64,000 nucleotides of DNA from Tubulanus polymorphus (lineage: Eukaryota > Nemertea > Palaeonemertea > Tubulaniformes > Tubulanidae): assembly GCF_964204645.1 (NCBI RefSeq), contig NC_134027.1, positions 4,390,485 to 4,454,484 on the forward strand. Reading direction: 5' to 3'. The position numbers and the translations under genes were made by a program. Positions 8,466-56,300 of the stretch are shown here, piece after piece (position 1 is the first letter of the stretch; each line of letters opens with the position of its first letter). Under the pieces are notes generated by a model. It had not been told where the DNA came from, ran no database searches, and saw nothing but the letters and a program-made list of their open reading frames with translations.

Positions 8466-20525
<12,060 letters not shown>

Positions 20526-29899: not shown

Positions 29900-29972
29900 G
29901 GCCGGTTAGCTCAGTCGGTTAGAGCGTCGTGCTAATAACGCGAATGTCGTGGCTTCGACCCCCACACTGGCC
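29900..29972 (+). tRNA. tRNA-Ile(AAT), copy 1, probably impaired
   Basis: A 73-nt cloverleaf with acceptor GGCCGGT/ACTGGCC, D stem GCTC/GAGC, and anticodon loop CTAATAA with anticodon AAT. The T stem reads GTGGC where the intact copies have GTGGG. This breaks the near-invariant G53-C61 pair and alters the B-box promoter (GCTTCGACC instead of GGTTCGACC). TTTTT follows within about 15 nt as a Pol III terminator. Transcription is probably weakened, so this may be a pseudogene. Confidence 0.75.
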
Positions 29973-30444
29973 ATTCTTTGATTTTTCTGCATTCGTTAAC
30001 GACATTCAATATTTATGGAAATGGCCTAGTTGAGTTCCGAAAGTTCCGACTAGTTTTTAAGTTGTAAGATTGAATAATTTAAAACTTATGACTTGAAATT
30101 ACTTTTAAGATTTAAAATCAATTGGACTTCATGGCCGTGAAGACGGCCACGGGGGTTATTCGTTTGTATTACACTGTCGTTGTTTCAGTATTGTTTTTTT
30201 CTCACATCTTGTCCTTTTCGCGTCATTTGAACCCGCGGTATTAAGACAGTCCATGTCCATCTAATGGTGTCAGATAATATTACGAGAGTCCTGTTCTGAC
30301 TAGAAGGGAAAACTATATTTTTCCTCCGGCTGAACCTGTCTTTGACCAAGATTGTACAAGTTCACATATTGCATTAATTCATCTCCAGCTATTGTTCATT
30401 AGTGGTCGTCATCTTCCATTCAATGTCATACATATCAGAAGAGT

Positions 30445-30517
30445 AAAAAGGAAGTGAGTCGAACCCACGACATTCGCGTTATTAGCACGACGCTCTAACC
30501 AACTGAGCTAACCGGCC
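30445..30517 (-). pseudogene. tRNA-Ile(AAT), copy 2, 3' acceptor strand lost
   Basis: Read on the minus strand from 30517, the first about 60 nt match the intact tRNA, with D loop AGTTGGTTA in place of AGTCGGTTA. The T stem GTGGG/CTCAC still pairs. The 3' acceptor strand is TTCCTTT instead of ACTGGCC and cannot pair with GGCCGGT. It is therefore a tRNA pseudogene or remnant. A TTTTT run lies within the lost acceptor part. Confidence 0.75.
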
Positions 30518-32493
30518 ACATATACACATTCTTTAAGACAATTAATTTTCTTTTTAATTTTCAATGATGGGCATACTTAAAGTTAACAATCGAATTAAAA
30601 GCGATAAGATCAATATAGACCATTAAGGCATATCGTTCTTCACCTCATATTGATTTTGTATAATGCATACGATTGATTCGATTCGATTTTTTATAATTTT
30701 CAATCATAATTCGTTTGGGTATACCCACTAAATTAAACTGAATATACTGCTTATAACAAAATGAATACTTAAGTACATTTACAGCAATCAAGGAACGGAA
30801 TATCGAGGCGTTCTGCAACAAAGAACTGTATACCTAATGTTTATAAACAGAGATTCCTGAAAAGTGATTGTTCGTCTCTCGTTTGAGTGCCTAATTTCCT
30901 GCTGAGAAAATCGTCACCAGTCAAATGGATTTCACGCTTCGTTAAATGCGTTTGTGAAATACGTTTTTCGAAAATTATCGCGCAAGTCATTTTCATTCAA
31001 AACTAATTTTCTATCTCTCCCGGTTGTAGTATTGATAGAACGAGATTTCATGCTGAGAATGTGAAGATATTTTTAAGAAGATATTTACGAAGTCAAGCGA
31101 ATTATACGGTTCATTAGACATATTTTCACTTTGTCTACTGCGAACGCATTGAAGCCGCTGGCTCGTTTTGTTTTTGTCCATTTCACGTATCGTATCTCCC
31201 TGAGCATGTTGCCCACGCAACTCTTTAACCGTTTCTGTATAACGGCGGATAGAATTTGATTAAATCTTACAAAACCGGGGCAGACGAGAACTGCGTCTAA
31301 TCATAGATAACAGACGACTTCAAACTAACTTAATCTGGACGACAGATATTTGTTTTTTATCCCTAGAGCTTCTAGAATGGACTGTTTAATAAGAGGCTTT
31401 TGTTTTCAGTCTTGAGATCAAGCTGAAAACTTATTAGTTCTAAATTGTCATTCAGCATACGGAGCCTTTGTACCGGTCATCATTTTCGCGCCCACGCACC
31501 AGACGAATTTCTCTCAGAGAGATCTGATACTATCCCTCGTTACAGATCATTGTTTGACTTCATTCTTCTGTCTTAAGGATGAAAACCTAACAAAAGCCTC
31601 CTTAAACGTGTAGGTGGAACAGGATTCTCATTAAGTGGAATCGTCGATCATAAGGAAGTTGTGCGCCTTAGTCAAGAATGCCGAATTTAAAACATCGGGG
31701 AAAGACTTAAAATCTTTTCTGTGACAAATTACTTTTAAATCCGTCTTAGAATATTGCATTACGCCCAGAAAGAAGCTCGTGAGTATAAAAATAATGTTCG
31801 TAAAAATATACGGGGACAATAAAAACCTGCGTTAGTTCTCGCGCGTTGCGAGAGGGTGAACATCGTCGATGTAAATCTAAAACTAGATTTTTCCGACGAG
31901 TCGCGAAAACAACTCCCTGGGCACTGAAAAGGCTTAATGAGTTAAGAAGTCTCATGTCGCAGTTAATCCGAAAGAAGTGCCTGTAGATTTATTCATCAAT
32001 TCAATTACAAGCAGACGACAGTCAGGATGAGTCAATATTACAGAAGAGTATTAGCCATCATTGTCATCAACAAATTAACCCCTTCAAACTGTCCAATTAA
32101 CTAGAAATCTCTGCAAGTCTTTTCGCCGGCCATTCTAAACGAGAGTAAATGTTTGTATAGGCAGTCGCTGTCTCTTTCTTTGATCTGTAATAAGTTTTCT
32201 GCAATAAGTCTGACTACACTCCGAGATCGTATCGCGAGGTGATCTTATCAAATAAATGTCTCAAGAAACGTCATCATCTATTTTCAGACGAAAGCGCTTT
32301 TAAATGAATCGTTCTAAATCATCATGATTTGCCTCAATAAAACGAAATATTTCTTTTGCAAACTTGGGTGCACATTTGCCTAACTCCGGAAAATTAGGCC
32401 TACCCAAATATTGTAAGTTTAGAGTATTGCGACATGACTGCGTTATATTAAAAAATACTATTAAATTTAAATCTCTTCGACAGCAGGTCAACT
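30518..32493. other. Intergenic spacer between the two tRNA-Ile pairs
   Basis: About 2 kb of AT-rich DNA with no recognised gene. Its first 120 bp are weakly similar to the sequence after 33159 (shared TTTTCAAT, GATA-ATAGACCA pieces), so an old duplication probably extends past the tRNA pair. Confidence 0.4.
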
Positions 32494-32566
32494 GGCCGGT
32501 TAGCTCAGTCGGTTAGAGCGTCGTGCTAATAACGCGAATGTCGTGGGTTCGACCCCCACACTGGCC
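32494..32566 (+). tRNA. tRNA-Ile(AAT), copy 3, intact
   Basis: A 73-nt cloverleaf with all stems paired: acceptor GGCCGGT/ACTGGCC (one G-T), D GCTC/GAGC, anticodon stem TCGTG/CGCGA, T stem GTGGG/CCCAC. Anticodon AAT, read as IAT after A34 deamination, decodes Ile codons. A and B boxes (TAGCTCAGTCGG, GGTTCGACC) are intact, and a TTTT terminator follows 7 nt after the gene. There is no intron and no encoded CCA. Confidence 0.96.
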
Positions 32567-33086
32567 AGCTACTTTTGAATTTTTCGACCAGTTTGGTACA
32601 TGACACCTTTAAGAAACTTTTAAGATTGTAAAACGCAATCATTTCTACAAGTTCGAGCTTTTGCTGCATCGAGTAGGCGTTTGATGATAGTTTTAGCTCA
32701 CTTGCGGTCTCACAAAGTTCAAAACTAGAAGACCTGAAGTCGTGGTCGTTCTACTAGTATCACGCTGTCAATTTATGCAGTCTTTTTCGGTAATGTTCAG
32801 CATCTTCATCGATCACGTTATTTGAACCCGATATAGAAAACAGCCCCTGCCCATCTAATGGTTTCCGGACAATATTACGCGTGTCCTGTTCTAACAAGAA
32901 GGAAAAACTATATTTTCCCTCCGGCGGCTGAACCTGTCATCTTTGACCAGAGTTGTACGAGTCCACATATTTCCTCATTAGTTACGCAAAAAGAGAGTTA
33001 TTCGAGATTCTATCTTCTATAAACAAATATGCACAAAAACTCCAGAGGTCTGAAACCGATAAATGGCCAGAAACCCTAAAAGAAAT

Positions 33087-33159
33087 GGCCAGTGTGGGGG
33101 TCGAACCCACGACATTCGCGTTATTAGCACGACGCTCTAACCGACTGAGCTAACCGGCC
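33087..33159 (-). tRNA. tRNA-Ile(AAT), copy 4, intact and identical to copy 3
   Basis: Base-for-base identical over 73 nt to copy 3 but on the minus strand. A TTTT run lies 3' of it (ATTTCTTTTAG on its strand). The left breakpoint of the 8.6-kb tandem duplication lies inside this gene, at 33144, so its first 16 nt are repeated at 41771-41786. Confidence 0.96.
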
Positions 33160-35869
33160 AATTATATATATATGCGATTTAAATATTTCGAGCAATAATA
33201 GATTAATAAAATTTTCAATAACTATATATATGGATATACTTTAGCTTAAGTAAAACAACTAAATACAAAAGCGGGAAAATAGATAATGATAGACCAAAAA
33301 ATGAATATTTCAAGCGTGTCTCGAATGCGGAATGCGTTTTCTATCTATATATATTTTGTTCAATTCTATCGCGTAACTGATGTATTTCATATGGAACGAT
33401 ATTTCAGAAAATATCACCATCCCGGCAGGAGTGTGGATCCATGGTGTTTGTTCCCCTAGGCTGTGTATTCCCTTACAACGGTGGCATGATAAAATAAAAT
33501 CGGCGGGAGATGTTTTCCTTGCAAGTTGTTATTATGAGATCAGATGTGCGCACGTTTAATGATGCCGTGTTTGATACAGTGAAAACTTGCGTAGGCGACA
33601 CTGTCTTTTCTGAATCAAACATCATTAATCATTTACTGGCAACATGTGAGGCACGACATTTAGTTTTTTAAGGCGTACAAACCTTTCTCATTATAATTTC
33701 AGAATCAAGGCGGCGGGTTTTTAAAACATTTTTGCTGTATTTGTTATCGAGTTTACAGAACAAGTATTGCGTTAATTGACATAAATGTATATGTAGCCTA
33801 AGGACAATGGATAGTGATTTGCAACAAAAATAAAGCGCTGGAAGGAGAACTTGAAAAAAGATTTGGCAATGGAAATATTTTGCATACAAATAATAGGCAT
33901 ATACATACATACTTTAAGGCGTGTGAAAAGAACTGTTTTGCCGAGTGGTTTTCAAAAGATTCAATTTCCAAATAGATAGTTCAGATTTTTATTGCATTTA
34001 GTCGTGAGGGTGACGATGATAATGAATACCATCGCATGTATCTATCGTGAGAAAATGCTTTTCTGATATTAACAATTGTTTCTAGGTATTTCAACTGCAG
34101 TATTAACTGTTTTAGGAAGTGCAGTAACAATGAGTTCAATGTGCTACGTACCCCGGTATAGTTCACGATTCCCGGACAAGACTCGTTAAAAATACTCGCG
34201 TATAAAAAAAAAACGCCGGAAATTGGGTATTTTTACGAGAATCGGTGACAGAATTGTGACATTAATTGGTTCGCTGATGAGTGACACAATAATAACAAAG
34301 CGCTCAGATACTCTGATCGTCATAACAAAAGAAACATTGAAAAAACTTTTTAGAATCCGATATTTTCTGTCAATAAAAATGTCGAGTATTTCACTGACCG
34401 GACACGGATTTTTGCCGCGCCATTCGGAGACAGATTAGTGCGACTGGGAACACAAGATGGACAGGTGGGATTATGTCTCAGCGACAATCTGCTTATTTTC
34501 AGGAGAACTGAAGACAATCGAGGTATAAATTTATCTGTCTGCGAGACGGAAAGGACCTTACATGGAAATAATGATGCAAAACATCGTGTGCATTGTCATC
34601 TTATACGTAGTATGGTAATCATTGGCCCTCGGGGACTCATCATCAAATTACATAACACAATAACAGCTTATCAATTAATATTCGAACAGCAGGTATTTGC
34701 AGCATGAATGCTCCCGGTATTTATTTGCTGCCTCGGAGTGATAAGTTTCATTTTGACATCATGAGTCTGATGATTAAAATGTACGTATTTGGATCTTGTA
34801 TTCTAAGCCTAAGTATGCGTGAGTTTTCTCAAATAATGGCGTTATTTCAAGTCTAAAATTGCTCTTCATTTACGAACAGGACACGGGAGTGCTGATGTAC
34901 GTATTTTCTGTGCGTGATCTGCGATGTAAAATGTTTGTTTAGAGCCGGGATGTCACTCATGTGAGGAGTTAATGAGTAATTACACCGAGTAGAGAGTCAA
35001 TTTATTAGATCTCCTGATGTTAACTTCCCATTTAGCATCGAGTTTTACAGTAGAACGCTATGACTCACAGGACACGAGCTGATGATCACTGCATTTAAAT
35101 AACTGGCTTAAACACCTCTCAAACTGTGGAGCTTTTTCCGAGTGATGCGACACGGGCGAAGCTTCCTCTGCGACTTAACAAAGCATCAATTACGAAGGCT
35201 TACGGCTTATGATCAAGGTTCGTTTATTTGTACGTAAAACACTCCACTGCCATTGATCTCTGAAAATCCGTCGTCGGTACTCGTCAGCGAGGCTATTAGA
35301 TCAACTGAAAATTGGCCAATCAGCTGCCTTGATTGCGATTTTCTGGGGCTCAGATGTATTTCGTTCCAGACATGATTAGCTGTTGTAAAAGGAAAGAAAA
35401 TCTAACGGTAAAAAGGGCTTTTCTGCGCTATCATCCAATCACCAACAAGACATGTGATTTGGAACATTCAAACTGTCCTGATTGGAACAGCATTTACTTG
35501 AATATATTATGTGTAAAGCAGTAGCAGTAAGACTTACTGAGATGGTGCATGTTTCTAAATTTCTTAAACCAATTCTGAAAAATTTGTGTTTCTTATTTCA
35601 CAAGGTCGGGTAGTCAAAGTTTCATCGTAGATTCTCCACTCCGCTGAAGGTATATATTTCGAGTGACTCTTGCCAAATTTGCTGATCTTGAAGATTTGGT
35701 CTATATATAAAAAATCGCTTGTGTCAGAAATGCTTGAATTGAATATCCTTTTACTGATAGTTTTCGTCGTATTACACGGTGACCGACCCATACGTCTTTA
35801 AAGCAGTCCGTTTCCAGTCTTTCCATTCAACGAACAAAACACGAGGACAAGCAAATTAGATTCATACAT
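33160..35869. other. Non-coding DNA downstream of CBFB (copy 1)
   Basis: Between the tRNA gene and the putative CBFB poly(A) site I see no recognisable gene. Open frames of 60-90 codons have no family signature. The same sequence repeats at 41787-44496. Confidence 0.5.
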
Positions 35870-37015
35870 TTTATTCGTATATATATATAATTGGCAAAAT
35901 TTCAGTTGAGATTAATCTTCTTTCAACATTCAATAGCATTCTTTTTACAAATAAATATCTATAAGACCAGTTTACATATTTGATACAAATTATATACACA
36001 TTCAACTTGATTGGCACATTATATTCATCGGACACACACCACCCTCCCCATGATCTGCGAAGAAACCGCTTGATAACTTAGTAATTTAGATCAGATATGA
36101 ATATGCTAAGCACAGGTTATTAAAAAATATCATAATAGTAAGTTTTTTGAAAAAAATCTGCAAACGATGTACCTAAGTTCTACCGTCAATCGATAGGTGG
36201 CAGAAAGCGCAGAATTCAAATCTTGATTATGACTAGATGAAATCAAGAGTTATCTTATATATCCTGTTCGTAGCATTTCAACATCCCTTAATGAACACTC
36301 ACTAAATCTAAATAAATCTGAATTTAAAAAATCTGACAAAAGCAATTTTGCCGAATCAATGCCGATTGAATTTAGTGGTTTATCGAATTGTCAACAGATT
36401 TCGAAATAGAACATTTTGAAAAAAAACCTGTTATATGCAAGTGAACTCGTTCAATTCATCAATTTCTATTATTTGAGTTTCGGTGAACTAGTGAATCTAC
36501 GAGATTTTGGAGCTCAAAAATGAAGACGAATTTTACGACGCATGATTTGTAACTAAATTGGACAATGTGAAGTGATTGATTCAAAACTGAGTTTCAAATC
36601 CTAATCATGTAAGTGATTTACTTGAATTTCATCATAAACATCTGAATTTTCTTTATTTACACTTTTTACATGAAATGCACTGGGTTCGCCTCTACCGACC
36701 ATACGTGGAGTTTTTCTTGACTGTATTTTTTTGAATTAATAAGAAAGTCTTTGTGTAGTTTAGTGATTCAATACAGGATCCAAAGGCTGAATTCAGACGT
36801 TCAACTGGACTGAGTCACAATTCTTTGTTTTTCTTGAGATACACGGAGGGTGAAGAAACTACTGTGAGGGCTACCGGACTTTGTACGAACGACAACGATT
36901 ATTCCGGAAGTCTGATTTAGCAGCGCCCTCTATCAGATGAAGGACGTTTATGGCTGGATCAATGACCATCGCTACTCGTCCCGCTCGGACTTGGTTCTGC
37001 TAATTTCCTTCTCAC
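35870..37015 (-). CDS. CBFB: CBFB terminal exon and 3' UTR, distal duplicate
   Basis: The coding part is 36959-37015: acceptor TATCGTTACAG then 18 codons (VRRKLAEPSPSGTSSDGH) and TGA. It matches the last exon of core-binding factor beta, whose vertebrate form begins ARRQQDPSPGS. The phase (0) fits the donor of exon 5 at 60069. The 3' UTR would run about 1.1 kb to AATAAA (TTTATT on plus, 35870-35875). It is an exact duplicate of 44497-45642 and is the distal one, so if both are real the splicing machinery meets the other copy first. Confidence 0.7.
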
Positions 37016-40000
37016 CTGTAACGATAAAGAATAGAGAATATGTTAGGATTTTCGTTGTTTAGAGCCCGACATTAAAAACCCTTTGTGACTCAAAATTGAT
37101 ATGAATCTATAATAAAAGTTAACACCCAAAGCACCTACGCAAACATTGTACGTAAAAGGTTGGGAGCAGGAATCTAAGATGGTTTAATTGGTTTCATAAA
37201 TGGATATTGATCAAATGAGTTCTATCTATATCCAGAACGCAGAACTTGCATATCATAGCAGTTATTCGTCATTCATATAAGTGACATTTGTCTCGAACTC
37301 GAGTGGGTCATCCATCAAAATAGCACCGTCTCAAGAGCCGTATATGCCTCCCGGGGTCAACTCCCAGTTCACAGGAAGCAATCTCACCTTTAAGTTAAAC
37401 GCGGAACAAAGCATTTCACCTTTTGGAATTTAATTTTTGACCAATGAAAAGGATATGTATCCAAGTGAGCGCATAAAACATGCTTAAGGTGTGACCTTTT
37501 TGCAAATTACACTTCATAAATCACCCGTTTAACCGACTTTCACCCACCCCTCAGTGTTTTCAAAAATGAATAATTTATGAAATTAATTTTTAGTCAAAGC
37601 TGTCGTCACTTGATGTAGAATTTCAATACGTCTTTGGGCGTGAAACTGTAAGTTTTAAGTTAAGTTTTATTGATGAAACTCAAATGACTGAAATTCCAAA
37701 TAGAGCTCCAAAAAATATGAAACCATTTTGAAAAACTGATTAATGATTTCATTTCAATCTGGTTTCTAAACATGCGGTTTTACGGTGTGAGTGTGAAATA
37801 AGATACTGATGATTGCAGAAAATAAATCAGCCAGGCGTCTCAGAACAATTAATAATAACATACATGCGAACCAAGAAACAAACGTTCCTTCAATATTTCA
37901 TGATTTTTTCTAAGACGAAACAAAGAACGCACGTTCGAAACCAGAAGGAAATAAATCTTCAAACAAAACTTTCAAATTAATCACTGATATTTCACTTTGT
38001 TAGGAAATTAGAGTGTTGTCAAAATTGGTTTTCGCTGGGGCCTTAGGAAACGGGAGGCCTTTCACTGGTCACAGGCGCAGTGTTTTATCTGTGGATAACA
38101 CACAAAGACCCCCTGCAGAGAGGGCGACTGGTATATGAGATGGTAGCAGTGGGTTTAATTCGGTGGCCAGAGCGCAGTTACTTCCTTCCAGGCTCACAGG
38201 AAATGATCGTCGCCACAACATGTAATTAGGAAAACCTTAGTTTTGGAAATCAAACTGTGGATGCAAGACCATAATTACACGGTATTGTTATTTCGAGGTT
38301 TAAACGAAAACTAAATTTTTGTAGTGTTGAGAGACGAAGATCCTAAAAACATCGCTCTGACATTCAAGCATTAAAGTTGTATTGAGTTAAGAGATGGAGG
38401 TAAGACGTCTGTGACACTCGCTGCTGCGTTCAGTCCCATCATTTATTATCATTTTTAGCTCAATTAGAATTCAATCGAAACACATTAAAATCTGCTTCAA
38501 ACAAAATACAAAGATTCAATGTCGGGTCACAGCGCACCGTTTTATGAATATCTGAACACAGCGCATCTATATCAATAGAAATTGTTCCGAACAAAAGAAA
38601 CCAGCTGTCTTCTTAAATGAACACAATAGCACCTTGTCATCTGATACGGAAAATATTTCAAAAGTTTCTTTTTCGGCTAACCGTAAAGACGCTGCGTTGA
38701 ACCGCAAGCACATTACCCCGACACAAACCGGGTTATAGCTAATCTCAGAGATGTCTCATCCTGCTCCACGAAATCATCAGCGTGTGAAAAATCCACGAGG
38801 ACTAAATTCCACACGCGTTCACCGGAGCACCAATATGCTGCGTATTGCCACTTAACAATATAAATCAGCAAATAATTACGAACGAATTTATCAACGATAA
38901 GAACTGGATGAAGCAGTTGACAAAATATTGGAGAGATGACATCGACAAATGGATGACCAGGTCAACTAATGATAAGGACAAGTTCAGCAAATACGATCCG
39001 GCAAAAGAACGAGTCCTATGAAATCTGTTCATCTTAAACACTGGGCACATAGGGCAGCTTCTTTAAGCCAGCAGAAAGAATTCATAGAACCACATAGGCT
39101 ACATTAAACCACCAAGATGTCCAAATTATCAACAACTCATAGAATTATGGACATTTTTGCCAACTGTTTTCAACCTGAAATCATTGACATGTAGAAGTGT
39201 GGCATATGGGACAAACACGAGGTTTGCGTGTACTGCGGTACTGATAATCCAAATCGGAATTCCACACCGCCTCGTCCACACGTGCCAGAGATGAATTTCC
39301 AAACTTTACCATTATTTCCGGCACAAGTATATGTTGATTTTACGACAACGCATGTCTTTAAAAGTCACTCGCCCTTTCAGACAGGAGATGACGAATTATG
39401 TAATGTATTCCACGGGGCAGCATGCACTCCATATGCCAACTTTATCTGCTGTAGAAAAGCTTTCATCCGCAAAATTATTGCACTATTACAGCGTAAATGA
39501 TTTATTGAATACAAAACATTATTTCAAACTTCCGCGTCTGATTTTCCAAATACAGCATCATTTTTTTGTACCCGTCCGTGAGTCATTTTAAAGCCTCTAA
39601 CAAATTGTGAACTATCATGCAACTTTTTTAAGACTAAGACAGTAAACGGATCGATCTAAAAATATGAGGGAATATTCTTTTCTAAAATCTAGGGACCAGA
39701 GAGATTGACACTCAGTAACCCTCTTATCGAACGGTAGTTGAATTGATGACAGATGGAAAATAAAGCTATAAATCTCAGCCAAACTTCGACAAGCAATCTA
39801 CGGAAAACACTTAGTTAAGCAGTAATGACTTGGTCGTTGTTGTCCATCTATGGCTCGACTGTGTCATTATTACTTTTTACATCAGTGAACGACCTGTTCA
39901 AGTATCACAAGAGGGCTCTATAAAACATTCATGTAGCCTCTTATTTACCAATCAAACTCAGTTAACGCGCGCTGATAACTGCCATAAACACGAGTTTAAC

Positions 40001-41770
40001 GACTAACTATTTCCCTCCAGTAAATGAGTGTTTTAAGAAGAGACAGTATGTCCAGGTTTCAGACGTCGCTGGCATTGTGCCGAGAAAGAATATGGAACTT
40101 TTCTACAAAATAACTTTCTCCCATGGTTAATCATAAGCCATTGTCTACATGACAATTCAATAGCCATGTATACCACCGATTCAAACAAGGAGAGATTCAA
40201 CTAGAAAAGAAATCGGATTGAACGAAAGATAATGATGACACTTCGGTAACAAAAGCACGGGACACGAATTACGCATTAGGACCATATTTGCTTTTTGAAA
40301 TCGTTTCAGCGAAGGTCACGTTTTTGCCGTGTTGCTATTCACACGCAATCTGGTTGATTCATTACAACCTCAATCTATGTTCGGGTTTATTGACTATGTA
40401 TCAACCCTCACCAACCATGCGATCGTCGTATATATCATAGCCCGATTTTAGCTGTCACGAAGACCACACCGGTGATTTATTTATGAAGACAGATGGTAAA
40501 AAGCGCCTTTGGAAAGAATTCCGATCGAACAGCGTATCAAATCATGCAGGGCTCTTGAATTCCGTACAACCACACCGTTAATTATAACAAGCAAAAAATC
40601 ATCGAACTATCGATTCTAATCCATTTTAGATTGTACAGTTTGGTCTATTGCGCTTCGATTCCCGCGTACACTATATCTGGAATAATTCAGATCTTAAAGG
40701 AAAGTTGTTTGGACGCAGTGCAAATTGCTAAAACCAAATAACTAAATTATTTCATCAAGCAGACAAGACTACAATGAGAATATTGTAGGAGAAAGTTTGA
40801 TGGGAAATCGCCCGAGAAAAGTGATAATCACATGTGACAACGTCTTTCCGTCGTCCCTTGTAATCAACGCAAGTCTTTCATCTTCGAAGACACCAAGTTA
40901 TTGTCAATACGGAACCCATCCGTTTCACCAGTGGCGATATTTACGTGAAAGTTTGCGGCTTTGTGGTCGTAATATCGGCGAATCTGATTATAATTCCACA
41001 TCAAACGAGCAAGAACAAGCTGTTATACGAGAAATCAAACGATTTCAGACAATAGTTAACAAGTTACGAGATTCACCCTGCGAGACACCGATTAACTCAA
41101 TATGGGACATTACGAAATTACGACGGCTCGGCCGAGTCACGATATATAACTAGAAACGCTATAGATTGAAGCAGTCGAGAGCTCACGAAGTGACGATTAC
41201 TGTTCCTAGCAACATTCAAGAAGAACTTCTAGAATAATGCGAGCACAACATTAAGCTACCAGTGCATATCTTTCCATCCGTCGCTACAATTACCAAAAGT
41301 CTAATGAAGTATAGAAATTAAAGAGCGTAACGTAGTTAAGACATGGCGCCGCCCAGGGCCGAACTTGGTTTCCATACGAGTATATGATTGAATTTATGCA
41401 AATAACTGTCTAATTCTCCAGAAGATGGGTATCGAAAATGTTGCACTTGTCGCGTTAAAGCTCAAGGGCACAGATAAAATCATGCGAACATAGATTGTAT
41501 CGTTGATTTTATAGCCGATGATGATCACGAGAAAACTGTAAACTAAAAACTATGAACTATGACACTTCGGAAACAGATTTTCCAGCGAGGTGCAAACAAA
41601 AGATGCTTCAATTAGATTTGTTTTCAAACTGAAGCCTTATACATTTCTGAGATCAAGTTTTCCATTGAATATTTCTATGTCTTCTTCGCTACTCTTAGAA
41701 ATCAAGCAGGAAGTATTTAAAAGGGCTTACATATGTTTTTAAATGATATTATATGTATATAAATATATAT

Positions 41771-41786
41771 ACTGAGCTAACCGGCC
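41771..41786 (-). pseudogene. tRNA-Ile 5' fragment at the duplication junction
   Basis: The 16 nt ACTGAGCTAACCGGCC (plus strand) are the first 16 nt of tRNA-Ile on the minus strand; the rest is missing and replaced by the AT run of copy 1. It is not functional as a tRNA. Confidence 0.85.
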
Positions 41787-44700
41787 AATTATATATATAT
41801 GCGATTTAAATATTTCGAGCAATAATAGATTAATAAAATTTTCAATAACTATATATATGGATATACTTTAGCTTAAGTAAAACAACTAAATACAAAAGCG
41901 GGAAAATAGATAATGATAGACCAAAAAATGAATATTTCAAGCGTGTCTCGAATGCGGAATGCGTTTTCTATCTATATATATTTTGTTCAATTCTATCGCG
42001 TAACTGATGTATTTCATATGGAACGATATTTCAGAAAATATCACCATCCCGGCAGGAGTGTGGATCCATGGTGTTTGTTCCCCTAGGCTGTGTATTCCCT
42101 TACAACGGTGGCATGATAAAATAAAATCGGCGGGAGATGTTTTCCTTGCAAGTTGTTATTATGAGATCAGATGTGCGCACGTTTAATGATGCCGTGTTTG
42201 ATACAGTGAAAACTTGCGTAGGCGACACTGTCTTTTCTGAATCAAACATCATTAATCATTTACTGGCAACATGTGAGGCACGACATTTAGTTTTTTAAGG
42301 CGTACAAACCTTTCTCATTATAATTTCAGAATCAAGGCGGCGGGTTTTTAAAACATTTTTGCTGTATTTGTTATCGAGTTTACAGAACAAGTATTGCGTT
42401 AATTGACATAAATGTATATGTAGCCTAAGGACAATGGATAGTGATTTGCAACAAAAATAAAGCGCTGGAAGGAGAACTTGAAAAAAGATTTGGCAATGGA
42501 AATATTTTGCATACAAATAATAGGCATATACATACATACTTTAAGGCGTGTGAAAAGAACTGTTTTGCCGAGTGGTTTTCAAAAGATTCAATTTCCAAAT
42601 AGATAGTTCAGATTTTTATTGCATTTAGTCGTGAGGGTGACGATGATAATGAATACCATCGCATGTATCTATCGTGAGAAAATGCTTTTCTGATATTAAC
42701 AATTGTTTCTAGGTATTTCAACTGCAGTATTAACTGTTTTAGGAAGTGCAGTAACAATGAGTTCAATGTGCTACGTACCCCGGTATAGTTCACGATTCCC
42801 GGACAAGACTCGTTAAAAATACTCGCGTATAAAAAAAAAACGCCGGAAATTGGGTATTTTTACGAGAATCGGTGACAGAATTGTGACATTAATTGGTTCG
42901 CTGATGAGTGACACAATAATAACAAAGCGCTCAGATACTCTGATCGTCATAACAAAAGAAACATTGAAAAAACTTTTTAGAATCCGATATTTTCTGTCAA
43001 TAAAAATGTCGAGTATTTCACTGACCGGACACGGATTTTTGCCGCGCCATTCGGAGACAGATTAGTGCGACTGGGAACACAAGATGGACAGGTGGGATTA
43101 TGTCTCAGCGACAATCTGCTTATTTTCAGGAGAACTGAAGACAATCGAGGTATAAATTTATCTGTCTGCGAGACGGAAAGGACCTTACATGGAAATAATG
43201 ATGCAAAACATCGTGTGCATTGTCATCTTATACGTAGTATGGTAATCATTGGCCCTCGGGGACTCATCATCAAATTACATAACACAATAACAGCTTATCA
43301 ATTAATATTCGAACAGCAGGTATTTGCAGCATGAATGCTCCCGGTATTTATTTGCTGCCTCGGAGTGATAAGTTTCATTTTGACATCATGAGTCTGATGA
43401 TTAAAATGTACGTATTTGGATCTTGTATTCTAAGCCTAAGTATGCGTGAGTTTTCTCAAATAATGGCGTTATTTCAAGTCTAAAATTGCTCTTCATTTAC
43501 GAACAGGACACGGGAGTGCTGATGTACGTATTTTCTGTGCGTGATCTGCGATGTAAAATGTTTGTTTAGAGCCGGGATGTCACTCATGTGAGGAGTTAAT
43601 GAGTAATTACACCGAGTAGAGAGTCAATTTATTAGATCTCCTGATGTTAACTTCCCATTTAGCATCGAGTTTTACAGTAGAACGCTATGACTCACAGGAC
43701 ACGAGCTGATGATCACTGCATTTAAATAACTGGCTTAAACACCTCTCAAACTGTGGAGCTTTTTCCGAGTGATGCGACACGGGCGAAGCTTCCTCTGCGA
43801 CTTAACAAAGCATCAATTACGAAGGCTTACGGCTTATGATCAAGGTTCGTTTATTTGTACGTAAAACACTCCACTGCCATTGATCTCTGAAAATCCGTCG
43901 TCGGTACTCGTCAGCGAGGCTATTAGATCAACTGAAAATTGGCCAATCAGCTGCCTTGATTGCGATTTTCTGGGGCTCAGATGTATTTCGTTCCAGACAT
44001 GATTAGCTGTTGTAAAAGGAAAGAAAATCTAACGGTAAAAAGGGCTTTTCTGCGCTATCATCCAATCACCAACAAGACATGTGATTTGGAACATTCAAAC
44101 TGTCCTGATTGGAACAGCATTTACTTGAATATATTATGTGTAAAGCAGTAGCAGTAAGACTTACTGAGATGGTGCATGTTTCTAAATTTCTTAAACCAAT
44201 TCTGAAAAATTTGTGTTTCTTATTTCACAAGGTCGGGTAGTCAAAGTTTCATCGTAGATTCTCCACTCCGCTGAAGGTATATATTTCGAGTGACTCTTGC
44301 CAAATTTGCTGATCTTGAAGATTTGGTCTATATATAAAAAATCGCTTGTGTCAGAAATGCTTGAATTGAATATCCTTTTACTGATAGTTTTCGTCGTATT
44401 ACACGGTGACCGACCCATACGTCTTTAAAGCAGTCCGTTTCCAGTCTTTCCATTCAACGAACAAAACACGAGGACAAGCAAATTAGATTCATACATTTTA
44501 TTCGTATATATATATAATTGGCAAAATTTCAGTTGAGATTAATCTTCTTTCAACATTCAATAGCATTCTTTTTACAAATAAATATCTATAAGACCAGTTT
44601 ACATATTTGATACAAATTATATACACATTCAACTTGATTGGCACATTATATTCATCGGACACACACCACCCTCCCCATGATCTGCGAAGAAACCGCTTGA

Positions 44701-47700
44701 TAACTTAGTAATTTAGATCAGATATGAATATGCTAAGCACAGGTTATTAAAAAATATCATAATAGTAAGTTTTTTGAAAAAAATCTGCAAACGATGTACC
44801 TAAGTTCTACCGTCAATCGATAGGTGGCAGAAAGCGCAGAATTCAAATCTTGATTATGACTAGATGAAATCAAGAGTTATCTTATATATCCTGTTCGTAG
44901 CATTTCAACATCCCTTAATGAACACTCACTAAATCTAAATAAATCTGAATTTAAAAAATCTGACAAAAGCAATTTTGCCGAATCAATGCCGATTGAATTT
45001 AGTGGTTTATCGAATTGTCAACAGATTTCGAAATAGAACATTTTGAAAAAAAACCTGTTATATGCAAGTGAACTCGTTCAATTCATCAATTTCTATTATT
45101 TGAGTTTCGGTGAACTAGTGAATCTACGAGATTTTGGAGCTCAAAAATGAAGACGAATTTTACGACGCATGATTTGTAACTAAATTGGACAATGTGAAGT
45201 GATTGATTCAAAACTGAGTTTCAAATCCTAATCATGTAAGTGATTTACTTGAATTTCATCATAAACATCTGAATTTTCTTTATTTACACTTTTTACATGA
45301 AATGCACTGGGTTCGCCTCTACCGACCATACGTGGAGTTTTTCTTGACTGTATTTTTTTGAATTAATAAGAAAGTCTTTGTGTAGTTTAGTGATTCAATA
45401 CAGGATCCAAAGGCTGAATTCAGACGTTCAACTGGACTGAGTCACAATTCTTTGTTTTTCTTGAGATACACGGAGGGTGAAGAAACTACTGTGAGGGCTA
45501 CCGGACTTTGTACGAACGACAACGATTATTCCGGAAGTCTGATTTAGCAGCGCCCTCTATCAGATGAAGGACGTTTATGGCTGGATCAATGACCATCGCT
45601 ACTCGTCCCGCTCGGACTTGGTTCTGCTAATTTCCTTCTCACCTGTAACGATAAAGAATAGAGAATATGTTAGGATTTTCGTTGTTTAGAGCCCGACATT
45701 AAAAACCCTTTGTGACTCAAAATTGATATGAATCTATAATAAAAGTTAACACCCAAAGCACCTACGCAAACATTGTACGTAAAAGGTTGGGAGCAGGAAT
45801 CTAAGATGGTTTAATTGGTTTCATAAATGGATATTGATCAAATGAGTTCTATCTATATCCAGAACGCAGAACTTGCATATCATAGCAGTTATTCGTCATT
45901 CATATAAGTGACATTTGTCTCGAACTCGAGTGGGTCATCCATCAAAATAGCACCGTCTCAAGAGCCGTATATGCCTCCCGGGGTCAACTCCCAGTTCACA
46001 GGAAGCAATCTCACCTTTAAGTTAAACGCGGAACAAAGCATTTCACCTTTTGGAATTTAATTTTTGACCAATGAAAAGGATATGTATCCAAGTGAGCGCA
46101 TAAAACATGCTTAAGGTGTGACCTTTTTGCAAATTACACTTCATAAATCACCCGTTTAACCGACTTTCACCCACCCCTCAGTGTTTTCAAAAATGAATAA
46201 TTTATGAAATTAATTTTTAGTCAAAGCTGTCGTCACTTGATGTAGAATTTCAATACGTCTTTGGGCGTGAAACTGTAAGTTTTAAGTTAAGTTTTATTGA
46301 TGAAACTCAAATGACTGAAATTCCAAATAGAGCTCCAAAAAATATGAAACCATTTTGAAAAACTGATTAATGATTTCATTTCAATCTGGTTTCTAAACAT
46401 GCGGTTTTACGGTGTGAGTGTGAAATAAGATACTGATGATTGCAGAAAATAAATCAGCCAGGCGTCTCAGAACAATTAATAATAACATACATGCGAACCA
46501 AGAAACAAACGTTCCTTCAATATTTCATGATTTTTTCTAAGACGAAACAAAGAACGCACGTTCGAAACCAGAAGGAAATAAATCTTCAAACAAAACTTTC
46601 AAATTAATCACTGATATTTCACTTTGTTAGGAAATTAGAGTGTTGTCAAAATTGGTTTTCGCTGGGGCCTTAGGAAACGGGAGGCCTTTCACTGGTCACA
46701 GGCGCAGTGTTTTATCTGTGGATAACACACAAAGACCCCCTGCAGAGAGGGCGACTGGTATATGAGATGGTAGCAGTGGGTTTAATTCGGTGGCCAGAGC
46801 GCAGTTACTTCCTTCCAGGCTCACAGGAAATGATCGTCGCCACAACATGTAATTAGGAAAACCTTAGTTTTGGAAATCAAACTGTGGATGCAAGACCATA
46901 ATTACACGGTATTGTTATTTCGAGGTTTAAACGAAAACTAAATTTTTGTAGTGTTGAGAGACGAAGATCCTAAAAACATCGCTCTGACATTCAAGCATTA
47001 AAGTTGTATTGAGTTAAGAGATGGAGGTAAGACGTCTGTGACACTCGCTGCTGCGTTCAGTCCCATCATTTATTATCATTTTTAGCTCAATTAGAATTCA
47101 ATCGAAACACATTAAAATCTGCTTCAAACAAAATACAAAGATTCAATGTCGGGTCACAGCGCACCGTTTTATGAATATCTGAACACAGCGCATCTATATC
47201 AATAGAAATTGTTCCGAACAAAAGAAACCAGCTGTCTTCTTAAATGAACACAATAGCACCTTGTCATCTGATACGGAAAATATTTCAAAAGTTTCTTTTT
47301 CGGCTAACCGTAAAGACGCTGCGTTGAACCGCAAGCACATTACCCCGACACAAACCGGGTTATAGCTAATCTCAGAGATGTCTCATCCTGCTCCACGAAA
47401 TCATCAGCGTGTGAAAAATCCACGAGGACTAAATTCCACACGCGTTCACCGGAGCACCAATATGCTGCGTATTGCCACTTAACAATATAAATCAGCAAAT
47501 AATTACGAACGAATTTATCAACGATAAGAACTGGATGAAGCAGTTGACAAAATATTGGAGAGATGACATCGACAAATGGATGACCAGGTCAACTAATGAT
47601 AAGGACAAGTTCAGCAAATACGATCCGGCAAAAGAACGAGTCCTATGAAATCTGTTCATCTTAAACACTGGGCACATAGGGCAGCTTCTTTAAGCCAGCA

Positions 47701-50397
47701 GAAAGAATTCATAGAACCACATAGGCTACATTAAACCACCAAGATGTCCAAATTATCAACAACTCATAGAATTATGGACATTTTTGCCAACTGTTTTCAA
47801 CCTGAAATCATTGACATGTAGAAGTGTGGCATATGGGACAAACACGAGGTTTGCGTGTACTGCGGTACTGATAATCCAAATCGGAATTCCACACCGCCTC
47901 GTCCACACGTGCCAGAGATGAATTTCCAAACTTTACCATTATTTCCGGCACAAGTATATGTTGATTTTACGACAACGCATGTCTTTAAAAGTCACTCGCC
48001 CTTTCAGACAGGAGATGACGAATTATGTAATGTATTCCACGGGGCAGCATGCACTCCATATGCCAACTTTATCTGCTGTAGAAAAGCTTTCATCCGCAAA
48101 ATTATTGCACTATTACAGCGTAAATGATTTATTGAATACAAAACATTATTTCAAACTTCCGCGTCTGATTTTCCAAATACAGCATCATTTTTTTGTACCC
48201 GTCCGTGAGTCATTTTAAAGCCTCTAACAAATTGTGAACTATCATGCAACTTTTTTAAGACTAAGACAGTAAACGGATCGATCTAAAAATATGAGGGAAT
48301 ATTCTTTTCTAAAATCTAGGGACCAGAGAGATTGACACTCAGTAACCCTCTTATCGAACGGTAGTTGAATTGATGACAGATGGAAAATAAAGCTATAAAT
48401 CTCAGCCAAACTTCGACAAGCAATCTACGGAAAACACTTAGTTAAGCAGTAATGACTTGGTCGTTGTTGTCCATCTATGGCTCGACTGTGTCATTATTAC
48501 TTTTTACATCAGTGAACGACCTGTTCAAGTATCACAAGAGGGCTCTATAAAACATTCATGTAGCCTCTTATTTACCAATCAAACTCAGTTAACGCGCGCT
48601 GATAACTGCCATAAACACGAGTTTAACGACTAACTATTTCCCTCCAGTAAATGAGTGTTTTAAGAAGAGACAGTATGTCCAGGTTTCAGACGTCGCTGGC
48701 ATTGTGCCGAGAAAGAATATGGAACTTTTCTACAAAATAACTTTCTCCCATGGTTAATCATAAGCCATTGTCTACATGACAATTCAATAGCCATGTATAC
48801 CACCGATTCAAACAAGGAGAGATTCAACTAGAAAAGAAATCGGATTGAACGAAAGATAATGATGACACTTCGGTAACAAAAGCACGGGACACGAATTACG
48901 CATTAGGACCATATTTGCTTTTTGAAATCGTTTCAGCGAAGGTCACGTTTTTGCCGTGTTGCTATTCACACGCAATCTGGTTGATTCATTACAACCTCAA
49001 TCTATGTTCGGGTTTATTGACTATGTATCAACCCTCACCAACCATGCGATCGTCGTATATATCATAGCCCGATTTTAGCTGTCACGAAGACCACACCGGT
49101 GATTTATTTATGAAGACAGATGGTAAAAAGCGCCTTTGGAAAGAATTCCGATCGAACAGCGTATCAAATCATGCAGGGCTCTTGAATTCCGTACAACCAC
49201 ACCGTTAATTATAACAAGCAAAAAATCATCGAACTATCGATTCTAATCCATTTTAGATTGTACAGTTTGGTCTATTGCGCTTCGATTCCCGCGTACACTA
49301 TATCTGGAATAATTCAGATCTTAAAGGAAAGTTGTTTGGACGCAGTGCAAATTGCTAAAACCAAATAACTAAATTATTTCATCAAGCAGACAAGACTACA
49401 ATGAGAATATTGTAGGAGAAAGTTTGATGGGAAATCGCCCGAGAAAAGTGATAATCACATGTGACAACGTCTTTCCGTCGTCCCTTGTAATCAACGCAAG
49501 TCTTTCATCTTCGAAGACACCAAGTTATTGTCAATACGGAACCCATCCGTTTCACCAGTGGCGATATTTACGTGAAAGTTTGCGGCTTTGTGGTCGTAAT
49601 ATCGGCGAATCTGATTATAATTCCACATCAAACGAGCAAGAACAAGCTGTTATACGAGAAATCAAACGATTTCAGACAATAGTTAACAAGTTACGAGATT
49701 CACCCTGCGAGACACCGATTAACTCAATATGGGACATTACGAAATTACGACGGCTCGGCCGAGTCACGATATATAACTAGAAACGCTATAGATTGAAGCA
49801 GTCGAGAGCTCACGAAGTGACGATTACTGTTCCTAGCAACATTCAAGAAGAACTTCTAGAATAATGCGAGCACAACATTAAGCTACCAGTGCATATCTTT
49901 CCATCCGTCGCTACAATTACCAAAAGTCTAATGAAGTATAGAAATTAAAGAGCGTAACGTAGTTAAGACATGGCGCCGCCCAGGGCCGAACTTGGTTTCC
50001 ATACGAGTATATGATTGAATTTATGCAAATAACTGTCTAATTCTCCAGAAGATGGGTATCGAAAATGTTGCACTTGTCGCGTTAAAGCTCAAGGGCACAG
50101 ATAAAATCATGCGAACATAGATTGTATCGTTGATTTTATAGCCGATGATGATCACGAGAAAACTGTAAACTAAAAACTATGAACTATGACACTTCGGAAA
50201 CAGATTTTCCAGCGAGGTGCAAACAAAAGATGCTTCAATTAGATTTGTTTTCAAACTGAAGCCTTATACATTTCTGAGATCAAGTTTTCCATTGAATATT
50301 TCTATGTCTTCTTCGCTACTCTTAGAAATCAAGCAGGAAGTATTTAAAAGGGCTTACATATGTTTTTAAATGATATTATATGTATATAAATATATAT
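41771..50397. repeat. Tandem duplication, copy 2 (8,627 bp)
   Basis: Directly abuts copy 1. Its left edge is the 16-nt tRNA fragment, and its right edge is where sequence changes from the AT run to unique ATGTTTATG. The layout fits one tandem duplication with almost no microhomology at the junction (one or two A/T bases). Alternatively it is an assembly artefact. Confidence 0.93.
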
Positions 50398-53300
50398 ATG
50401 TTTATGATTTCCCTAGAAACGGTGGAATTAAGTACCGGGTAATGATAGAATAAAATCGCATGACTAGGTTGAGGATAAGTTAGAATGTTTGGATATTGCC
50501 TGTGGCTTCTGCGAATATTGACTGTTGACTTAATTCCAGCTTTCATAATGATTGCAGATAAAGATCTATATGAATATCCCAAAACGGGGAATAACGTAAT
50601 GGGGGAAAAAGTAAATACTGAAATTATCGGCCCAGTCATTTATTTATTCTAACACTTTGTGTTTGTCATATTGTACAACGTTTCGCGAATGAATTTTCAA
50701 AAAAGTGCACTGATTAAATGGGTATTGGACTTGGCGCGATGGTCAGGTCTAATAACTATGAATTCAGCACTGATCAATGAAAACTGTCGACTCGATCTAA
50801 GGCGGGCCGTCGGGCGCACGTCGATACCGGAGTTTGCAAGCTCCCTGGCCACAAAGTGATTAATTTTCGAAAACCATCTGTTACGACGAGATGAGAAATT
50901 GGCGACCCAATATGGAAATTGCGGAAATCTTAGCAGAATCTTCGGTATCTGAGCGCCAGAACGTTGCCGATCTCAAGTGCTTTTCACAGGGATACAAATA
51001 ACGCATTTGCGTCTGTGCGGTAGCGATGAGCGTGTCATCACAATGCCTCGGTCAAGCTTGAATGCATGAATTTTCGCTCGAATCGCGACTTTGTATGGAG
51101 CGCCGATACTAATTTGTTTCTTGTGGCTTGCCTAATATGAGCCACGTGGACACTATCAAACAACATTAACATCATTTTCGAGTACATAAACCGCGCCGCA
51201 TAAAAAATTTCTGCTTGGCTAATTTGCGATCGCTTTCGATGAATGCGGTTTTAAAAGTTCATCGTCGCGCCCTTTTCCACACATGCAAATTTTTGTCATC
51301 GTATTCGCTATATAGAAATAACAGCCGCATTGTCGTCCAGACAAAAACCCGGCTGATTAATGCATAGCATCAATTTTGGCGGAAACCCGTTTTTAAAGTT
51401 AGGGTTACTTATCAGTACTATCCATCTTCATTTGACAAATAACGAATAGAGATTCGTTCATTTCGACAAAATGAAATTGAAAGATGCTTTAACATTACAC
51501 TAGTGATTAGCGCAATAAATCCAACGTGGTGACACTTTTATTAAAAGTAACTTCCTCAATTATTTAACAACCTGTCCTGTTCTTTTCAAACCGTAAACCC
51601 GCATCACGGCGGCAAGAGATATAATGCTCATAGTTACTTTGATTTTGTCATAATCTTGCGAAAAAGGAGATGACCATCAATTAAGTTGGCATGAATACAA
51701 CGATTTTTGTGATAAAGCGCGTTAAGTTGGTGAAATAATGATTAATTTGCGTATATGAAAATCTGCTTTCGGTGTTTCAGTCAAAATGTCATATGAAAAT
51801 TGACGTGCGACCAAATGACTGGGATCCATCAAACTTAACCGAAGTGAAAAATGAATGACCAAAGTGAAAAAATGGCTAAAATCTAGGTCGTAAAAAAACT
51901 AATCAACCACAATGTCATCGTCTTCGGGATCCTTAATGAAACCGCAATAGCAGTGCGGAAGAGCCCGCATGGTACGGTGCAAGCCCTGGCCAGAGCCACG
52001 TGACCTATCAGTTGATAAATGGGCCTTGGCGTTGTCCAGCACGTGGTGGCTATAACGCGCTTCATAAAACCTTCATCCACTAATGGCTACTTAATTATTT
52101 TCGGAGGCACAAGATTAGCTTTAAACGAGGCCCAACATGACACACTCGACCAAGGGTACAGTGTAATCCGCATAAATATTCAATCAGATGACTCAAAAAA
52201 CTGACAGCTCTTTCAAAGGTTTCTAAGGCGAACTATCATTTGTCGGCTGCCCGAACATCACCGCAGTCACGATGACAAACATGTAACTGAGTACTTAAAT
52301 CGGCCGGACACAATTCTATCGAGAGCATCTTCAATTGAAACTAGATTTATGAGACAAGAACAGAGAAAACACATTTCAAAACTGAATTCAAACGCAGTTA
52401 GATTTATTTTTACCTATGCTTCGTGACAGAGTTGTGGAACCCATCGAATATTTTCGAAAGCGAGGTTGCCAGATCGGATCCTCGCAATTCATCAACCGAG
52501 ATAGGGGTTTCAAAAATATTAGGTAGTTTTTTTTTATCTGTCAATTAGCTCTTAAAATAGACCGCTCTTAAAGACCGCTTAGAATATATTGAAATAGATC
52601 GGAAAACCGATATCACAGAAGAAACATGATTTGTTTCGATGATGACTTTGAATGATTATTATTTCTTTATGAGAAATTTATGATAAATGCCCGTTTTAAA
52701 GACGAACACGTGATCGTTTCCCATCCATTGAACTTCTTCAACCAATCACCAAAATGGACATTCGTGAAATTCGATACGGCGAAAAAACCTCCTTACAAGA
52801 TAATAGACGCGCATCCCGCAAAATAATCGTAAGGCATATGTCACAGCCATTACGGATATTTGCTCCCCATTGAAAAACCACCACCTCTTGGGAACGGGCA
52901 AACAGAACGGCGGTGCTAATTTTTTGCCCACTCAACTAAATTATCTTATATTTCCCGTGTCGGTGTTGATTAAAACAATATCGCATTATCGACAGAAAAC
53001 CACGTGGAATTGCTGCCCGCAAACGTGAAACATAACCTCATGATCGGTGATTATTACGCATGGCGTCCAAAACGGCGGGATGCAAACTTCGATTGGTTAA
53101 ATTAGATCTTCTGTGATTGAATTACGGCGTGGTGCTCGCTCAGATGACATCGTTCTGTTGCTGGTGATAATATTTGCTGTGTCTTTCTCTCGGACAATAT
53201 GCGTTTTCTCGTTGTTCAGTCAGTCGTTGCTGTACCGTAATTAGTAAAAGGTGAAGCAGGTATGAGGTCCACTTATGGTGCAATGTCTGATAACGCGATG

Positions 53301-56300
53301 CCGAACATCAATCGCATCAGAGGAATCAGAACAAAATCGAGATGACATGACCTTGAAAACTACAGAAACCACAAAAATTTTCTATTTAGTGCTCGTTTTA
53401 TCCCGGGCTTTTAATAAGCAAGAGAAATTTTCCACGGCCACTTAGAAATTAGTTCATTACTCGTGGGACATTGGTCATGGCGGTATCCGTGGTTTACCCT
53501 TCACGCCGATATCATCACGAAAGAACCACTAAGCCTTGAACCGCGTTTTTATTTGCACAATGGAATTGTCCGTGTTTTCCAGCGATTTTGGTCATCTGCC
53601 TCACGCTCATTATAACAATATCAAGGCGAAAGAATTGTTTGTCAACGCTGACCAAAAATGAATACGCTTTTTATCTGCCAGGGTCTGTCCATAATTTCAA
53701 GTGGTCATTGTGAGACTTCATTCGGATACGTTGTTAGTCGATATTCATTCATCTGACCTCTCGATCAATGTCCGACGGATATTTTCATCGTCATGAAATA
53801 TGTTTGATCGAATCAATACAACTCATAGCGCTAGCCCGGTCTCATTCGGTGAATGAGCTTAAACCGGGCCACCTGCGACAAAAGATTCTGCGTAGCTATT
53901 CATACGGGTTTTGCATCTTTTCAACGCGAACACGTTTTTTGCTATCTTGAGAGTCTGAATGACACACGTAGTTGACGGTTACAATATTTGATTTTTTGCA
54001 ATATTACATTACCAATAATCTAATATGAATGAAACCAGTCCGGGCTCGAGTGAAACCCCGCAGTCTTCATTTTATTGCCAATAATTGACAAAAATCTTGA
54101 CTATGTTGGGGAAATCTCGGGGGTCCAGGCAGGAGGTGTGCCGAACGTATAACTTTAATTCTTCATCGCAGTTATTATTTACGGTGACTACAATGCATCG
54201 CTTAATTGTGCGCGATCTGCGTTAATTCTTCATCAATGATAGATGCTATAAGAATTCTCGGATTACCGTTACTGAGCAAAATATAGCGCACATTCTAAAC
54301 AGCAGGTTTCATTCTTTCAGCTAAATGTCGCTTCCCACTTAAAACAAATTGAGAACACCATTATTGCGTTCTATACAATAGACACACAATTCCAATCTCA
54401 ATTCCATACAGAATCGGTAACAAACAGAGAGGCGGATTATTTGAAAAATTGAATTTTTGATATTTTCACGTTCGAAGAATGGAAAGGACAATAATTGCCA
54501 TTAGTAGAGTTTGACAAAAAAAACTGATGCAAGACATCGGGAATTATGTACGAAATAAAGGATTTATCGCGAAAATACGTAGCGGACATCACCAGGGGTC
54601 TGAAAGAATCATAATGGAAACAGTGACTAAATTTAACATTTTCCACACAATATTTTAACAAATTGATCGGTTGTTTCATTTCCTATTCAAATATACTAGT
54701 AACATCCTACGGCATATTTTTTCCGAGGTGTCGTCGTGATTCAGTTGATTACAATTCTCCCGTGGCTCGCGCAGCAATAACAATATAAAAGCTCGCGGAA
54801 TCGATGAATATTTTAGTTCGTCTGACATGTAATATTATACACCGCTAAATGTAGATACGTAGTTTCAATCCATGAAAAAAAATCACTGTTGATTCAGATG
54901 CTGGAAACAGTAGAACCACGGCTGATTTCTAATTGAAACACCTGTTAATACTAACTCGAATAATGTTTGAATTTAGAGAATTGTTTGAATCAGATGCTTT
55001 CACCTAACAGTGAATCCAATACACTTTTATTTGCTAATTGATTTCATTAATTGATACGTCGAGTTTAGTGCATTATAGTTCAACCCGACCCACACGCAAA
55101 ATATGTCTCCTGAAACAAACACGCCATTCTGTTACTGATGCGCACGCTTGCCGAATAAAAAACCCTGTAATTTTTGTCCATGAATAGGAACGTGAGGCAT
55201 TGTAGACGCGATTCTAAATGACCCCGAAATTGGCACTTTCCGTCGAAACCGATGCTAGGTATTCAAACATTCTTACAATAAGATATTCCGGTTTCAATGC
55301 TCAGACCAACGGCCGTATTGAAACAAGCTTTACGTCATCTTTTGAATTCGTCAAAACTATAAATGTATTAAGCTTAATTTCATACGACTATTATCTAGCC
55401 AATCTTTGTAGACCTTTGCTCAGCGACAATATTGTGAACCGTAACTAACTTGTCCGATACAATGGACAACAAACGTATTCACATGAAAACGTACTAGCAA
55501 CACGTTAAATCTGAAATCGGATGTCGAAATGTGATACAAATGAATAAAAATGCTCCTCCGTACTTGTAATTCTATCTTCGAAACGTTGGTCGACGCGGAA
55601 AGAAGCGGGATTTGTTTTTCAACCAGGTGCACATTTTATGTGGAAGGGCACACAGCTCAACGTGGAAGGGCACACAGCTCAATGTGGAAAAGCACACAGC
55701 TCAAGGTAATTAGTGAAAAATACAATAGTCATTTACGAAATCACTATCAGAGATTGGCGCACACAGAAAAAAAAACGTCATAAAGTTTAAAACCGATGAA
55801 CGGTGTTTGTGCAAGTGCTACTGGCTCTGAACCTTAAATGCCATTGTATCATTTGGTTCGTGCCCGGTTTTGAACGTGTCTCATTCATGCATATCCCGAT
55901 TATCCAGCTGAACCAGCACTTCGTTTATTTTTTGTGGCCCGCAGACCATGCAGAAGACAAACAATATTAGATTTGATACGACACAAGAAATTTTTTCTTG
56001 CCCTGAGCGGCCAGTGCAGTATTACATTTCCGCATCCCGGGACAGACAACTCGTTTAAGACTTTGAGTGCGGTTTCTCACAAACGACTTAACTAAACCTA
56101 ATTTCCTTAACTCTACATGATGTTAATCTTCAATTACCGTCTTCGCGATCGAGATTCCTATTGTGGTTCTGATAATCCTGTTAGTGGCTGAAAGTTGGTC
56201 CATACAGCGTGTGTTAATTTGGATAAAACCGCGGCATGATTCCTCATTTCAAAGGTCGTTTCTGACATCATGTAAAATTCTCCACTTTCCTCCAAAACGT

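Follow-up and report, generated by a model that had tools for sequence, protein, structure and literature searches.

The locus analyzed here raises the question of whether two adjacent copies of an 8,627-bp unit reflect a duplication carried by the organism or an error made during assembly. The window, i.e., the whole stretch of 64,000 nucleotides that we analyzed (G000:C3:4390485-4454484), lies on contig C3 (27.8 Mb) of an assembly of 267.8 Mb in 77 contigs and, judged by its genes, is part of an animal nuclear genome. We found that the pair is probably real and represents a very recent, simple head-to-tail duplication of intergenic DNA; we infer from sequence both that the organism carries it and which repair route produced it.

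Direct comparison found positions 33144-41770 and 41771-50397 of the window to be alike at all 8,627 bases, for which a chance origin is out of the question. A self-comparison of the window, shifted by 8,627 bases, recovered one exact run (33144..41771 vs 41771..50398), comprising 8,628 matches, 0 mismatches and 0 indels, and no second run longer than 15 bases occurs at this offset within the window. The match extends past the unit by a single base, an A (41771 = 50398), and the bases bordering it differ on both sides (33143 G vs 41770 T on the left; 41772 C vs 50399 T on the right); the junction is thus ambiguous by 1 base (41770/41771 or 41771/41772). Homopolymers and short tandem repeats are also alike between the copies. 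The sequence-only reading had described a perfect 8,627-bp tandem duplication at 33144-50397, with copies abutting at a constant offset and with equal homopolymers; this description holds base by base, its coordinates are right, and the single unbroken run contains no indel. The two copies are arranged head-to-tail and abut directly, there is one novel junction, and the outer edges run on into unduplicated flanks, which is the layout of a recent simple tandem duplication. The features of the locus are collected in Table 1.

Table 1. Features of the duplicated locus and of the adjoining tRNA-Ile cluster (positions are those of the window).
Feature	Position	Strand	Evidence or remark
Inverted tRNA-Ile pair farther left	29900 / 30458-30518 (truncated)	+ / -	
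Inverted tRNA-Ile pair adjoining the unit	32493-32567 / 33086-33160	+ / -	Identical over 75 bp
Intact tRNA-Ile (AAU) gene with the left breakpoint (33143/33144) inside	33085..33160	-	ARAGORN; Rfam RF00005, 65.5 bits
Copy 1 of the 8,627-bp unit	33144..41770	+	Exact match to copy 2; otherwise single-copy, without recognised coding content
Novel junction, AT-rich unit end fused to tRNA-Ile interior	41770..41771	.	1-bp microhomology (A), no inserted bases; breakpoint sequences and flanking bases
Copy 2 of the unit, following copy 1 head-to-tail	41771..50397	+	Exact match
17-nt tRNA-Ile 5' stub opening copy 2	41771..41787	-	Sequence comparison; without anticodon arm, without B box
AT-rich imperfect repeat at the right breakpoint	50358..50405	.	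TRF

In a genome search, each of five queries tiling the whole unit matched two places alone, namely both copies, at 100%, and this tiled search of the 268-Mb assembly found no third copy, haplotig or dispersed family of the unit. The right flank has one match in the assembly and so does the left flank, apart from two parts: the tRNA sequence, one of ~16 tRNA-Ile-like places that the search recovered genome-wide, and 72 bases that have an 82% match inside the same tRNA-Ile cluster. The search skips very common words and leaves out some stretches, and single-copy status is thus not absolute. A search for COX1 found no match in the assembly, and the mitochondrial genome may therefore lie outside it.

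False duplications in assemblies likewise comprise near-identical copies on one scaffold, and they are recognised by lowered depth, by discordant pairs and by a gap that separates the copies (Ko et al., PMC9516828). The sequence-only reading had weighed a recent, perhaps polymorphic duplication against a false one made from two haplotypes or by an error loop; of these, the first is favoured here, the haplotype version is disfavoured, and an error loop or chimeric join keeps a small share of the probability. Heterotype false duplication, in which the two haplotypes of one locus are placed end to end, is the commonest kind in older assemblies (PMC9516828). Yet, no haplotype-specific difference separates the copies, against 86 expected at 1% heterozygosity and about 9 at 0.1%; a single coalescent tree gives P(0) of 0.011 and 0.10, respectively, and low heterozygosity or inbreeding would weaken this argument. 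The junction is moreover ungapped, while false duplications are typically gapped between the copies (PMC9516828), and no N bases occur in the window or in the 324 kb around it. Following the logic of overlap assemblers, a contig-end overlap could not build such a junction, because the unit ends share 1 bp. Taken with the zero differences, this makes a haplotype origin highly improbable.

In turn, a "homotype" artefact would arise if the assembler, misled by a chimeric read or by a loop in its graph, traversed the 8.6 kb twice. Perfect identity, homopolymers and short repeats included, is what such a loop yields, and homotype false duplications are real; in long-read VGP assemblies they make up at most about 0.1% of the sequence (PMC9516828). 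However, the 1 bp shared by the end and the start of the unit is far under overlap thresholds, so that at least one junction-holding read would be needed, and same-scaffold false duplications are typically gapped (PMC9516828), unlike the present pair. A similar loop is absent from the 324 kb examined: apart from the present pair, the only tandem duplication of at least 300 bp there is an array with a 190-bp period, and assembly loops are therefore not common locally. The array lies ~73 kb to the left of the window (G000:C3:4316878-4317448), and its repeats are 99.7% alike. We consider the homotype explanation rather improbable, and an assembly artefact of any kind unlikely. Reduced read depth, taken by itself, would be no proof of an artefact, since per-copy depth also falls when a duplication is heterozygous.

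If the duplication is real, as we favour, its zero differences place a 95% upper bound on its age of ~174,000 generations at 1e-9 mutations per site and generation, 58,000 at 3e-9 and 17,000 at 1e-8; the mutation rates are assumptions, and a greater age could be masked by gene conversion. Although the duplication is recent, the lack of differences is by itself no sign that it arose in "the last few generations".

The left breakpoint lies inside a tRNA-Ile(AAU) gene, 17 nt from its 5' end, and copy 2 therefore opens with a 17-nt stub (TGGCCGGTTAGCTCAGT, - strand reading) that continues into AT-rich DNA. Neither ARAGORN nor Rfam calls the stub, which, judged by its sequence, cannot be a tRNA gene. 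The tRNA-Ile gene is thus intact once, and the number of tRNA genes is unchanged by the duplication.

The unit is flanked by two genes that both turn their 3' sides towards it: KATNB1 (katanin p80, + strand), whose WD40 and con80 exons reach ~28.34 kb, and CBFB (core-binding factor beta, - strand), with exons at ~61.97-61.83 and 60.19-60.09 kb, as judged by the last detected domain exons (28.3 kb; 60.1 kb). A six-frame Pfam search of the unit, with stops read as X, found no domain at E 0.1; none was found from 50.4 kb to the CBFB exons either, and Rfam families are absent from the unit apart from the end of the tRNA gene where it starts. No mobile-element domain, curated RNA family or protein domain is thus recognisable in the unit; unannotated RNAs or enhancers may be present. 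Since no recognised gene lies inside, the duplication is probably neutral, and it may be polymorphic or heterozygous.

Insertion of a mobile or viral element, e.g., a circle inserted in tandem, might also be read from the head-to-tail layout and from the tRNA gene at one end, as some elements often insert at tRNA genes. Against this stand the six frames devoid of element genes in the Pfam search, the lack of terminal repeats, the absence of the unit elsewhere in the genome, where the tiled search found no dispersed copies, and the tRNA gene itself, which stays intact once and whose stub is accounted for by the breakpoint. We regard the chance of such an element as close to negligible.

At the right breakpoint, the AT content of the surrounding 60 bp ranks in the top 1.9% of the window. 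The closest matches within 400 bp of both breakpoints are short (the longest 20 bp at 80%, the strongest 17 bp at 94%), AT-rich matches near both measure 11-15 bp, and long homologous repeats of the kind used in non-allelic homologous recombination were not found at the two breakpoints. An (AT)n word of 11 bases is common to both breakpoint areas, and 0.8% of random pairs of 120-bp stretches have one this long in common. It starts 20 bases after the left breakpoint and 8 bases before the right one; we rejected it as the joining homology because it is offset from both. It was also noticed post hoc. Neither breakpoint stands out in DNA hairpin energy (rank 0.14 and 0.51 vs random places), which leaves strong hairpins unsupported as a cause of breakage.

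Because 1 bp is common to both ends, no extended homology exists and nothing is inserted, end joining or replication template switching would be the natural readings of the junction signature, rather than homologous recombination or transposition. In the sequence of events that we propose, a replication fork or strand break within the inverted tRNA-Ile gene pair would be joined to another lesion, in the AT-rich tract 8.6 kb away, by ~1 bp of microhomology; this step, through end joining or template switching, would leave the segment twice. The tie of the breakpoints to the tRNA pair and the AT tract was drawn post hoc from a single event and is put forward as a suggestion.

Comparable breakpoints have been described in Drosophila: a study that scored microhomology from 2 bp upwards classed 35% of CNV breakpoints as blunt and found breakpoints to be enriched in non-B DNA motifs (11% vs 5%; PMC4056370). 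The non-homologous breakpoints of that set are likewise blunt or near-blunt, without long homology, and with low-complexity sequence at one breakpoint. Yet, they stem mostly from short events, while ours is one event of 8.6 kb, whose 1 bp falls under the 2-bp threshold and would rank as blunt. Among 20 lines of D. yakuba, 1,415 segregating tandem duplications of at most 25 kb were recorded (PMC4503668), which are likewise kilobase-scale, recent and head-to-tail in an animal genome; their polymorphism was established by resequencing many lines, whereas here one assembly is considered. The event is ordinary; animal populations commonly carry tandem duplications in this size range (PMC4503668).

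The tRNA-Ile(AAU) cluster to the left of the unit (29900-33160) consists of two inverted pairs, whose spacer pieces are about 80% alike. Together with the mirrored tRNA genes, this likeness indicates an older duplication of the pair, and such an earlier event seems to have taken place, as judged from sequence comparison. It is doubtful that the inverted cluster is a recurrent duplication hotspot, responsible for both the older pair copy and the new 8.6-kb event; if it were, inverted tRNA-gene pairs would drive repeated tandem duplication at the locus.

Alone, the duplication carries little biological weight, as no recognised gene is doubled. It provides a clean case of a tandem duplication that is very young and whose breakpoints are legible to the single base, and a spot for assembly curators to compare with reads. 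Elsewhere in the window, one long open frame (13800-15128, - strand) encodes a rhodopsin-family GPCR, for which orexin receptors score best among solved relatives (E about 1e-18), and a short tandem array at 55640-55704 contains 3 copies of a 22-bp unit (GTGGAAGGGCACACAGCTCAAC).
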